Part shown: in pieces, positions 36,679-40,101 of the stretch
How the letters are laid out: the number at the start of each line of letters is the position of its first letter
Position numbering within the stretch: position 1 is the stretch's first letter
Source of the DNA: Rhodopirellula baltica SH 1
Lineage (GTDB): Bacteria; Planctomycetota; Planctomycetia; Pirellulales; Pirellulaceae
Direction of reading: 5' to 3'
NCBI RefSeq assembly: GCF_000196115.1
Contig: NC_005027.1
Location: forward strand, 4,898,001-4,962,000
DNA: 64,000 bases
Made by a program: the position numbers and the translations under genes
The notes under the pieces: generated by a model
Database searches by the model: none
Seen by the model: only the letters and a program-made list of their open reading frames with translations
What the model was told of the DNA's origin: nothing

Positions 36679-38592
36679 ATGAACCACTCAGCTTCGCGTC
36701 GGAAGGTGGACGACCTATTCAGTGCAACGGCACATCGTGCACGCAAGTTGAGTCGTCGCCTCAGTCTCAAAAGACTCGCACGAAACGTCTGGCCTTCAAA
36801 ACGTAGAAAAGGTGTCCGACGGTTCGCGGATCCTTCGCTCGGTCGTCAGGGATTATTCCAAGCCCTGAACGACCGCAACGTCAATTATGTCGTCTTGCGT
36901 TGGTTCGAAAATGTACCCGAATGGCCCGAAGGGGAAGACATCGATCTGTTGATTGATGTCGCTGACCTGCACTTGGCGGATGATCTATTTGTCACCAATA
37001 GCCGAGAAATCCCTTGCGACGTCTACGGTACTGGACCAGCCAAAAACGCATGTTGGAAAGGTTTGTCGTACTACCCTCCCTACCTTGCTGAAGAGATCAT
37101 CCAATCTCGAACCTTCCACCGGGACCTCTGCTACATCCCGAACGAAGAGCATTACTTCCTATCGCTGGCGTACCATGCGCTCTACCACAAGGGCAACGCA
37201 TCGGGTTTGCCGTGGGACGACAATGAGGCAACTCAGCGACAGGGCAAACAAAACAGCGACCACGACTACGCTGACCGCTTGCGGGCAGCCGCCCCAGCAA
37301 AGTTCCAAAACACATCGATGACGATGGAAGGTTTGGAGCGCCTGTTGACGAGCCAATCTTGGAATCCACCGGTGGATACATTGCGACGATATGCGTCACT
37401 CCGTCCGGAACTGGCCCAATTCCTTCCACCTGCGATCGACAACCAACATGGCGAACTCATCGTTGTGCTGTTTCGACAATCCGCAGTCGACAACCAGATT
37501 TTGGACGAAGCCATTTCGCTATTCCGCCAAAAGCATCGCCTAGAAGTCATTGGCCAACATGAGCTTTCCGCTGAAGCTGCCCAGCTAGCTTCAAAACACA
37601 TCCGAGGCGGGAATTGGGATGAAGGCCCGTTCCCGCAGTCCGGTGGATTACCTGCCGTTGCATTGGCGTTGTTTGATTTTCACCCAATCGAACCCACGCC
37701 CGCTGAAAAGGAACAGTACCCCTACATACAAAACCGTCGTGTACTGTTCAAAAAGGAAATCCGACGACTGCTTAACAAGCGATTGCCCAAAACGCAGTGG
37801 AGCAATTGTGTGCATTCCAGCGATGACGAACTCGAAGGCCTGGAATACCTTGAAATCATCGACTCGTCGTTTCACACAGAAGTACAAAATCATGTCGACC
37901 ACTTGCGTCGCAGCTACAAAACACCTGAACCAGTCATTCGATCGCTTCGCAAACCCGCCAACCGTTCGAAAACGGAACTCATCCAGTGGAACGGGCAAGA
38001 AGCCGTCCGAAAAACATTTCGCCCCAGTTTCAAACGGTTCTGCGATCGCGAAATATTCATCTACCAAACCTTGGGACCTCAATTACACACGGTCCCGGAA
38101 GTACTGGAATTCAGCGACTACAGCTTCGTGCTTCCAAAGTATGAAAATTGCTTGGCCAACTTGTCTCTTCGCAAACAAGGCAAACTGCTGAAACCTTACG
38201 CGAGCCAAGTTCTCGAATTGCTTCGAGCAACATTCGCGTTGAAACGCGTCATCATCGATTTCCATCCAGGCAATTTGATCCTGACACCAGGAGGCGATCT
38301 CTATTTCGTCGACTTTGAATTCACTCAGCCTCTTTCGGATTGGCCGAACTCATTCATGCAGTCGCCGGACCTCGTCGGTTTGCCATCCGGTTTCTCCGGG
38401 GACCGTCCCAGCAATTTGCCGCAGAACGGTTACACCTATGACGATTTCTGGAAGCCCATCTTCCAGTGCAGCTTAGAGACGCTCATCAAGCAATGCAAAA
38501 TTGACACTTCATCCGCTGTCATGGAGAAACTGTCGATCACTGATTTCAAGTCAGGCGAGCAATCCACTTCATCGCTCCGCGAAGCCGGCTAG
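36679..38592 (+). CDS. Three-domain glycan island protein: nucleotidyltransferase-like, NDPK-like, APH/LPS kinase-like
   Basis: 637 residues. N-terminal part (about 55-210): YVVLRWFENVPEWPEGEDIDLLIDV has the hDhDh of the nucleotidyltransferase fold (D87, D89). Middle (about 257-396): ELIVVLFRQSAVDNQILDEAISLF, then NRRVLFKKEIRRLLNKRLPKT and N376-CV-H379-SSD, the active-site signature of nucleoside diphosphate kinase (NxxHGSD). C-terminal (about 430-600): RKTF (K445), IIDFHPGNLIL (D527, N532) and FVDFE (D545), the catalytic loop and metal site of the APH/Kdo-kinase superfamily. It probably phosphorylates or otherwise activates a glycan or its precursor; this is inferred. The IS element begins at the last base of its TAG stop. 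Confidence 0.75.
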   Translation: MNHSASRRKVDDLFSATAHRARKLSRRLSLKRLARNVWPSKRRKGVRRFADPSLGRQGLFQALNDRNVNYVVLRWFENVPEWPEGEDIDLLIDVADLHLADDLFVTNSREIPCDVYGTGPAKNACWKGLSYYPPYLAEEIIQSRTFHRDLCYIPNEEHYFLSLAYHALYHKGNASGLPWDDNEATQRQGKQNSDHDYADRLRAAAPAKFQNTSMTMEGLERLLTSQSWNPPVDTLRRYASLRPELAQFLPPAIDNQHGELIVVLFRQSAVDNQILDEAISLFRQKHRLEVIGQHELSAEAAQLASKHIRGGNWDEGPFPQSGGLPAVALALFDFHPIEPTPAEKEQYPYIQNRRVLFKKEIRRLLNKRLPKTQWSNCVHSSDDELEGLEYLEIIDSSFHTEVQNHVDHLRRSYKTPEPVIRSLRKPANRSKTELIQWNGQEAVRKTFRPSFKRFCDREIFIYQTLGPQLHTVPEVLEFSDYSFVLPKYENCLANLSLRKQGKLLKPYASQVLELLRATFALKRVIIDFHPGNLILTPGGDLYFVDFEFTQPLSDWPNSFMQSPDLVGLPSGFSGDRPSNLPQNGYTYDDFWKPIFQCSLETLIKQCKIDTSSAVMEKLSITDFKSGEQSTSSLREAG

Positions 38593-38599
38593 AGTCATT

Positions 38600-38623
38600 G
38601 GGACGTTCGATTTACAACTTGCG
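38600..38623 (+). repeat. Left terminal inverted repeat of the IS
   Basis: Begins GGGACGTTCGATTTACAACT; matches the reverse complement of 39948-39971 over all 24 bases. The outward extension GAGTCA-tt matches GAGTCA-ga at the right end. Confidence 0.93.
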
Positions 38624-38723
38624 GAACTGCTTTGCTAGCATTGCATTCGGCTGAAATCGCCTGCTCGTTACAATGGGGTTATCGAATGGACTGAAAGGAT
38701 CTTTGACTTTGAAGGAGTGTGTC

Positions 38724-38996
38724 ATGACACTTGCAATGGAACACCACTTCGACCAAACGGTCGAATCCCAGATGCGAAACTTTTTTCGGACTCTCGGCGA
38801 GAAGGATCGTCGACGCTACGCAGCGATCGAAGCCAGGAAGCTTCCTTTCGGAGGCATCCGCTACATCGCCAAAGTACTTGGCTGCTGTGAGAACACGATC
38901 GCAAGTGGCATCAAAGAGCTGGAGAGCCTTGCTGATGGTGATCCCCTGGAAGGACGCCAGCGAGTCGAAGGAGGTGGCCGCCCAAAAAAGAACTGA
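38724..38996 (+). CDS. Transposase ORF1 (N-terminal, DNA-binding part), ISAzo13 type
   Basis: 90 residues, start at ATG 38724 because AAGGAG stands at 38712-38717 seven bases before it; the frame also has an ATG at 38673. Family phrases: RRRYAAIEARKLPFGGIRYIAKVLGCCENTIASGIKELE, a helix-turn-helix that should bind the IS ends, and the basic end EGGGRPKKN. It stops at TGA 38994-38996. If the ribosome slips back one base at A AAA AAG (38984-38990) translation continues in ORF2, giving a 405-residue protein, the normal size for this family. Alone, ORF1 might act as a regulator or competitor, as OrfA does in IS3 elements (inference). Confidence 0.9.
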   Translation: MTLAMEHHFDQTVESQMRNFFRTLGEKDRRRYAAIEARKLPFGGIRYIAKVLGCCENTIASGIKELESLADGDPLEGRQRVEGGGRPKKN

Positions 38997-39029
38997 GCTG
39001 TCCGTCACTCATGAATGAGTTGCGGGCAG
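38968..39029 (+). promoter_or_regulatory. Programmed -1 frameshift signal
   Basis: Three parts in order: AAGGAGGT (38968-38975), a Shine-Dalgarno-like stimulator; the slippery heptamer A AAA AAG (38984-38990), in the ORF1 frame as CCA AAA AAG; and, after 7 bases, a stem-loop 38998-39012 / 39015-39029 (15 pairs, two or three of them G-U, one mismatch). ORF2 is in the -1 frame and open through the site. The order and spacing match the dnaX and IS3-family signals. Confidence 0.85.
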
Positions 39030-39940
39030 TGATCCAAGACAATACTGCCGGTAGTCCCACCGTGCCTGGCTTGAAGTGGACGCATCTGTCGGTCGCTGAG
39101 ATTGTCAGAGAATTGTTCCAGCGAGGAATCAAGGTTGCAAACGAAGTGGTTTCTCGTTTGCTCGGCGAGATGGGGTTCAAGACTCGCCAGCAGGTGAAAT
39201 CAAAAACCAAGGCGCCAAGTCGCGACCGTGACGAGCAGTTTGAAAAGATCGAGAAGTCCATCGAGGACTACAAAAACACGGGAGATCCTGTGTTTAGCAT
39301 TGATAGCAAACGAAAGGAATCGCTGGGTGAAGTCCACCGTAGCGGCGACGTGATTGCCAATCAGGCAGCGGAAGTTCTCGACCATGATCTACCAGCTTAC
39401 CGTGATGGCGAAGTCACACCGCATGGGATCTACGACGTGCAAGAAAACACGGGGCACGTGACAGTGACCACAGGTAGCGACACCGGTGAATTCGCGGTGG
39501 CATCGTTTCAAAGGTACTGGGAAGAAGTTGGTTCGGTCCAGCACGCCTCGGCCAAGCGAATTCTCCTCTTGTGTGATTGTGGTGGCAGCAACAGCTACCG
39601 TTCAAACACGCTCAAGCACCATCTTCAGGAACTGTCCAATGAACTCGGGTTGCCGATTCAGGTGGCCCACTATCCGGTTCATTGCTCGAAATACAATCCG
39701 ATTGAACGGCGAGAGTTTAGCCACGTCGAACGAGCGTTTTCAGGCCGAATTTTTTCAACAGCCTCGGACGTAGCAGAGGCTGCTGAATCAACATCCACCC
39801 AGACCGGGTTGAACGTCACCACAGCAGAACTCCCCGAATTCCAGCCTGTTCGCAAGAGCGGGAAAAGAGTGCCGAAACCACCGAACGTGGAATACGACAA
39901 AGATCTCCCCGACTACAACTACACGTTCAACCCACAGTAG
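38990..39940 (+). CDS. Transposase ORF2 (catalytic DDE part), made by -1 frameshift
   Basis: The frame is open from before 38942 to TAG 39938-39940; an ATG at 39011 would give 309 residues, but the frameshift fusion is the likely product. The DDE triad is complete: D98 in FSIDSKRKE, D189 in LLLCDCGGSNSYR and E232 in KYNPIERREF (numbered from 39011). Other family marks: LKWTHLSVAEIVREL, SRLLGEMGFKTRQQ, GDTGEFAVASFQRYW-type context and the C-terminal DYNYTFNPQ. No internal stops, so the element could be active. This matches the 'Rhodopirellula transposase' DDE domain of ISAzo13 elements. Confidence 0.9.
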   Translation, partial: ELSCPSLMNELRAVIQDNTAGSPTVPGLKWTHLSVAEIVRELFQRGIKVANEVVSRLLGEMGFKTRQQVKSKTKAPSRDRDEQFEKIEKSIEDYKNTGDPVFSIDSKRKESLGEVHRSGDVIANQAAEVLDHDLPAYRDGEVTPHGIYDVQENTGHVTVTTGSDTGEFAVASFQRYWEEVGSVQHASAKRILLLCDCGGSNSYRSNTLKHHLQELSNELGLPIQVAHYPVHCSKYNPIERREFSHVERAFSGRIFSTASDVAEAAESTSTQTGLNVTTAELPEFQPVRKSGKRVPKPPNVEYDKDLPDYNYTFNPQ

Positions 39941-39947
39941 TTGAATA

Positions 39948-39971
39948 CGCAAGTTGTAAATCGAACGTCCC
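39948..39971 (-). repeat. Right terminal inverted repeat of the IS
   Basis: 24 bases, ending AACGTCCC, exact inverse of the left repeat. It starts 7 bases after the transposase stop codon. Confidence 0.93.
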
Positions 39972-40101
39972 TCTGACTCCAACGCCCACCCGAGAAAGAG
40001 ATGTTCCGATCGACGTTGAGCCGGCGGAACACTCTTGGCCCGTGTTCCGTCATATCAACGACGCCACAACATTCGGAAACAGGCCATCTCGACCAAGGCA
40101 C

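Follow-up and report, generated by a model that had tools for sequence, protein, structure and literature searches.

Predicted programmed recoding of an ISAzo13-family transposase in Rhodopirellula baltica and in related elements that share its split

Known recoding cassettes and the junction in Rhodopirellula baltica

The frameshift cassette of the dnaX gene of Escherichia coli is composed of a Shine–Dalgarno (SD)-like motif, the slippery heptamer A AAA AAG and a stem-loop, and the same order of elements occurs in IS911 and other members of the IS3 family. The SD-like motif and stem-loop of IS911 are described in part of PMC4066793, and the dnaX cassette in part of PMC5009743. Among insertion sequences (ISs), the families IS1, IS3, IS5 and IS630 are listed as decoding with a frameshift in that part of PMC5009743, to which part of PMC3711429 adds an IS1182-type cluster, and for IS630 recoding in both directions is known (PMC3711429 and PMC5009743, each in part).

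The order found in IS911 and dnaX is also present at the junction of two open reading frames (ORFs) of an IS in the window, by which we mean the whole stretch of 64,000 nucleotides of R. baltica SH 1 that was analysed. As in IS911 and the IS3 family, the first ORF represents the DNA-binding half of the transposase and the second ORF the catalytic half. The first ORF (38724–38996, forward strand), identified from the frames and from profile matches, encodes the helix-turn-helix (HTH) half of 90 amino acids, ending with KKN at the stop codon TGA 38994–38996, and is preceded by AAGGAG at 38712–38717 on the same strand, 6 nt before ATG 38724, which is likely its ribosome-binding site. The catalytic ORF (38942–39940, forward strand), which encodes the DDE half, lies in the −1 frame, is open from 38942 so that it overlaps the first ORF by 55 nt, and would be used from 38990 to its stop at 39938–39940. 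A −1 shift at the heptamer gives a protein of 405 residues and 45.3 kDa from ATG 38724, as compared to 10.2 kDa for the first ORF alone, with KK-ELSCPSLMNELR as the predicted peptide across the junction. Both the open −1 frame and the length of the fusion had been given in a preliminary description of the locus, and both were borne out.

The joined protein scores 371.6 bits against NF033519, the profile of ISAzo13 transposases (cut-off 200), over positions 3–386 of 387, and the coverage by its halves is complementary, 3–69 by the first ORF and 73–386 by the catalytic half, which alone reaches 303 bits; the earlier assignment of both halves to one ISAzo13 transposase thus holds. The catalytic half also matches PF07592 over its entire length (375.2 bits, positions 1–308 of 308; cut-off 26.9), and the first ORF scores 24.5 bits with Pfam HTH_36, slightly below the cut-off of 25. 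Residues D194, D285 and E328 of the joined protein are candidates for what we take to be the catalytic triad.

All three signals lie on the forward strand. The heptamer A AAA AAG (38984–38990) is in phase with the first ORF (ccA AAA AAG AAC TGA), and 8 nt upstream of it is the SD-like motif AAGGAGGT (38968–38975), a possible 5′ stimulator that also encodes EGGG; both are present as originally described. The likely 3′ stimulator is a stem-loop at 38997–39030 with 14 pairs, one 1×1 mismatch and a 4-nt loop. The preliminary description had placed a 15-pair stem at 38998–39029 after 7 bases; the hairpin and its single mismatch stand, but the number of pairs was slightly off, because the fold has 14 (13, with −17.8 kcal/mol, if segment 38998–39029 is folded alone), and the spacer between heptamer and stem is 6–7 nt, which is inside the range of 4–10 nt for stimulatory structures. 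The minimum-energy fold of the 45-nt stretch that holds the stem-loop has −20.3 kcal/mol. Folding of a 101-nt context is unexceptional (z −0.43), though the same hairpin is present in it. Since none of 2000 synonymous-codon shuffles of the catalytic frame matched its energy, codon choice does not account for the hairpin.

Counting both strands, the 64 kb contain A6G eight times, and the copy at 38984 is the only one that an SD-like motif precedes by no more than 20 nt. Such a motif lies upstream of 0.69% of 11620 sampled window positions, and a hairpin of −17.8 kcal/mol or better downstream of 0.24% of a quarter of these positions, which gives about 1e-4 chance cassettes per window as a product of rates that ignores the coding of GGGR, by which the SD-like motif is favoured. 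In a −1 signal such a motif is optional, and this one deserves less weight because its sequence encodes the conserved GGGR of the linker. Its duplex with the 16S rRNA tail is predicted at −12.5 kcal/mol for an assumed tail that may differ from that of the host; a search of the host's own genome with RF00177 and two conserved patterns gave no match to 16S rRNA or its anti-SD sequence.

The insertion sequence and its copies

The ISAzo13-family element measures 1372 bp (38600–39971, forward strand), its ends being set by five near-identical copies, and is bounded by terminal inverted repeats of 24 bp (left, 38600–38623, forward strand; right, 39948–39971, reverse strand) that agree in 24 of 24 bases. 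Four of the copies lie outside the window, in a host genome that consists of a single contig of 7,145,576 bp. The five copies differ at ten positions, nine of them coding with four synonymous changes, and none is in the frameshift region; the same junction and cassette are found in all five, which are too alike for a paired-change test of the stem. When the host genome was searched with the joined protein, only these five elements were obtained, each as two pieces, and PF07592 recovered the same five. Neither search detected an unsplit relative or another ISAzo13 source or helper in this genome, and a strongly diverged transposase source may be present elsewhere in it. A scan of 38500–40100 yielded no promoter and no terminator.

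Each of the five copies has a target duplication of 1 bp. A duplication of 3 bp is typical of the ISAzo13 family, without defining it, and a related split IS in another genome has 3-bp TAA/TTA duplications in nine of nine copies and no palindrome. In R. baltica all five copies are inserted into a perfect palindrome, at the centre of its 3-nt loop, with stems of 6, 5, 6, 8 and 7; the arms that flank the window's copy are at 38592–38599 and 39972–39979, the left one starting at the final stop-codon base of the ORF at 36679–38592. Of 20,000 random window sites, 1.8% reached a stem of 5 when 16 registers were allowed, and the target chosen by the IS looks like a hairpin loop.

Related elements and their split

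Relatives were collected from 241 genomes of the same family (matches in 55 with the protein and in 64 with PF07592), 391 genomes of the phylum (59 with matches), 397 genomes of the class that were searched with a related catalytic domain (96 with matches) and plasmid records, of which 158 had a match and 12 of these were examined; a scan of genome contigs produced three relatives. The loci are mostly the best among the matches listed, and the proportions of split and single elements are therefore no census. A full-length profile built from 22 single-ORF proteins was used for a six-frame search of 189 loci, of which 169 covered at least 330 of its 400 columns and 92 were distinct, i.e. shared at most half of their 15-mers. 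The linker was left out of the alignment for the tree of 89 rows, from which L114 and L119, with a second break besides the linker split, were omitted for their short catalytic pieces, and L125 for its very long branch. One row (L189) was reassigned to single by hand, the linker limits (columns 70–92) were chosen after the breaks had been seen, and the Fisher tests on split and A-run counts ignore descent.

The tree contains two related groups, one with 8 rows (support 98/94) and the other with 34 (95/94), that together consist of Planctomycetota plus one Methylomonas plasmid, and a third clade of 44 rows (100/99). The nearest element to that of the window is L026, at a distance of about 1.8 changes per column; its run is weak, an A5 followed by CCCC, and lies slightly earlier than the window's heptamer. 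Among the best matches listed, 37 of the 42 distinct elements of the two groups are split in the same linker between the HTH and DDE halves, as compared to two of the 44 in the third clade and three of all 47 rows outside the two groups. The remaining five are the intact single ORFs L024, L080, L157 and L170, and L103, which is single with a stop, carries an A7 run and looks, from its sequence, like a decayed split element even though it was counted as not split. Of the 37 split elements, 36 have at the linker a run of at least five A's, often followed by G's, the exception being L155 with A4G7; among the four intact single ORFs one has such a run, and over all rows it occurs in 39 of 40 split elements and in 7 of 39 single ones. 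Frame breaks found in the two groups are all within the linker, although the dropped L114 and L119 have a second break; ten elements outside the groups are broken only away from the linker. The element of the Methylomonas plasmid requires a +1 shift at an A8 run. An ISAzo13 element on a Microvirga plasmid (L138) has a +1 break at an A9 run, away from the linker and inside the catalytic domain, around profile column 188.

In single-contig genomes split elements were present in at least nine, at least five and at least three copies, and the copies did not differ in their run. For twelve selected pairs of relatives, some sharing rows, mismatches at codon positions 1, 2 and 3 numbered 183, 104 and 417 before the run in the frame of the first ORF, and 214, 150 and 563 in the catalytic frame after it, an excess at the third position in both; in these pairs both halves evolve as coding sequence, each in its own frame. 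With the split at one place in so many relatives, the element looks like a case of real, shared control of jumping rather than of a broken gene. The proposal that the halves are meant to be joined is upheld by the arrangement common to the five copies, by the lack of another ISAzo13 element among the search results for the genome and by the split in 37 of 42 relatives. The preliminary description had named closely related unsplit copies free of A6G as a sign of a one-off mutation. Among the relatives covered, single ORFs without a long A-run do exist, and they include the two best-scoring ones among the matches listed, L024 and L025 (43–44% identity), but only four of the 42 are intact single ORFs.

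The stimulators of the window's element and 41 other split elements were compared to those of 30 single-ORF rows, five single rows being skipped. Only the window's element (1 of 42 split elements) had both SD pairing at −9 kcal/mol or stronger and a downstream fold of z ≤ −1.5. Pairing averaged −5.0 kcal/mol in the other 41 and −7.2 kcal/mol in the 30 single-ORF elements, and the value of −9 or better was reached by one of the 41 (L074) as compared to nine of the 30, in which a stimulator would have nothing to act on. Downstream folding did not differ between the 41 and the 30: z was ≤ −1.5 in three split rows (L168, L128 and L082) and four single rows, and a hairpin of −17.8 kcal/mol or better right after the run was detected in none of the 41 and in one of the 30. 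Of the conservation expected in planctomycete relatives, the place of the split (37 of 42) and the A-run (36 of 37) were recovered, but the combination of SD pairing and fold was not (1 of 42), and the three-part cassette is not supported as a conserved feature. The stimulators rest on one lineage, since only the window's element combines both. An SD-like motif plus hairpin as a family-wide trait was sought among the relatives and not found.

Upstream hairpins with z under −1.5 were present in 4 of 23 elements with AmGn runs, 1 of 17 with An runs and 2 of 30 single rows. In L162, L166, L168 and L169 strong hairpins end within a few bases upstream of the AmGn run. Upstream hairpins have been reported for slippage in a Roseiflexus IS630 element, and the likeness in 4 of 23 AmGn relatives is suggestive only. 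GCTAGC occurs 5–25 nt after the run in the far-diverged elements L021, L038, L045, L079, L082, L110–L114, L117 and L180; it encodes Ala-Ser in the catalytic frame, and in several +1 elements contains the TAG stop of the first ORF.

Ribosome, polymerase and the known systems

Recoding of one kind or the other, by ribosome or polymerase, is highly probable at the window's junction, and the sequence makes programmed −1 ribosomal frameshifting the probable way in which its transposase is made. It is very improbable that the element has simply decayed from a single ORF by a one-off frameshift mutation: the single-ORF state of L024 and L025 and the scattered frame breaks of the third clade are in line with decay, but the same split is kept by five copies in a genome in which no helper was found, split copies of relatives are multiple and have unchanged runs, and most elements of the two groups are split in the linker. 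One-off mutation was rejected on account of the multiple copies and of the place of the split, which is shared with relatives. Equally improbable is the production of two separate proteins that pair up, with the catalytic half starting at ATG 39011 after TGA 38996. This ATG, 15 nt past the stop, opens an ORF of 309 amino acids with nearly the whole catalytic domain; however, it is inside the stem-loop and has no SD-like motif directly before it, the coverage of NF033519 by the two halves is complementary, and family members outside the two groups have both halves in one ORF.

A more serious alternative, though still an unlikely one for the window's element, is transcriptional slippage, in which an extra base, or the loss of two, introduced by the polymerase at A6G would bring both halves in frame in some of the mRNA. 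Part of PMC3711429 reads a mixture of shift directions as pointing to transcriptional realignment, and part of PMC5009743 states that no IS elements with +1 ribosomal frameshifting had been identified. Among the 37 split elements of the two groups, with their A5–A9 or AmGn linker runs, the shift needed is −1 in 27 and +1 in 10; A7G, A6G4 and A6G5 each serve both directions, and so does GTCCGAAAAAAGGGGCGG (18 nt), which is present in two of the 92 elements: read in one and the same phase, it stands before a −1 junction in L113 but before a +1 junction in L180. Elements like these, identical in motif and phase yet opposite in the direction required, offer a clean test of polymerase versus ribosome slippage. 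XmYn is a slippage pattern, with T5C5 of the Roseiflexus IS630 element as a known site (PMC6211511, in part), and this pattern and the mixed direction match the relatives. The mixed directions and AmGn runs suggest that many of them probably reach the joined frame by RNA-polymerase slippage on An or AmGn, whereas a sizeable share of the −1 sites, in which an A AAA AAR phase is also kept, could work at the ribosome. The mixed directions speak for the relatives, not for the window's element alone. Its run, A6 with one G, falls short of seven A/T or XmYn, a length or pattern that many relatives have; slippage in IS1447 needed seven A's, and six or fewer gave no product (PMC6211511, in part), although in some organisms slippage may occur on shorter runs (PMC1088944, in part). 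Moreover, a hairpin 3′ of the run would not yet have been made when the polymerase slips. In ribosomal signals the structure generally starts 5–8 nt downstream (PMC4066793, in part). Judged by sequence, A6G is a short run for the polymerase to slip on, and the 5′ and 3′ elements of the window's junction are of the ribosomal kind. Because of the strong SD-like motif and the significant downstream fold, ribosomal −1 frameshifting is the best reading for this element.

According to this frameshifting mechanism, ribosomes would start at ATG 38724 and translate the HTH half, after which most would end at TGA 38994 and release the 10.2-kDa protein. The downstream stem-loop would make some of them pause at A AAA AAG, pairing of the SD-like motif with the 16S tail would probably help slipping, and a backward slip of one base would lead to the 45.3-kDa transposase. 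We infer from the sequence the slipping, its site at the ribosome and not the polymerase, its frequency and the role of the short protein; the arrangement would limit transposase output and provide a DNA-binding by-product.

Programmed recoding of the ISAzo13 transposase, common among related planctomycete elements, is well supported by the sequences compared, and within this wider predicted recoding the three-part cassette appears as a local version. It can be envisaged, with slightly less than even confidence, that most of the branch slips at RNA polymerase and that the window's lineage switched to a ribosomal cassette of the dnaX/IS911 kind. Members that use the polymerase could drift between +1 and −1, since they slip on An or AmGn runs. 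If the switch is true, a single transposon family would show changes from one recoding machinery to another within the same handful of codons. Switching between recoding machineries is also reported for dnaX homologues. Split elements lend themselves to annotation as a pseudogene or as a pair of genes, and the number of active copies may therefore be underestimated.

A literature search on Rhodopirellula and programmed frameshifting found nothing, and one on ISAzo13 and frameshifting brought up a comparison of mycobacterial genomes. The word frameshift is absent from the main text of PMC9208149, which belongs to the ISAzo13 literature, as far as the part covered extends; neither ISAzo13 nor Rhodopirellula is named in the parts covered of PMC3711429, PMC5009743 and PMC4066793, nor Rhodopirellula in that of PMC1088944. 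The recoding mechanisms are known from other IS families and, within the literature searched, are novel for ISAzo13; an earlier description may be present in ISfinder.

With respect to known systems, the window's transposase shares its cassette with the IS3 family but is itself of the ISAzo13 family (NF033519, PF07592), and frameshifting is in this case predicted from sequence. The IS630 profile NF033545 scores 65.2 bits with the fusion, under its cut-off of 100 and far below the ISAzo13 score. Single-ORF ISAzo13 elements from Planctomycetota, Rhizobium, Mesorhizobium, Streptomyces, Rhodococcus and Anabaena match the same profile end to end and mostly have the same GGGR-type linker, but with one uninterrupted frame through it. 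Many split ISAzo13 relatives, with A7–A9 or AmGn runs and both shift directions, resemble IS1447, of the IS3 family, and the Roseiflexus IS630 element, for which transcriptional realignment is described (PMC6211511, in part), whereas the window's element differs from these two in having A6G only, plus an SD-like motif and a 3′ stem-loop. ISAzo13 would join IS1, IS3, IS5, IS630 and the IS1182-type cluster as a user of frameshifting.
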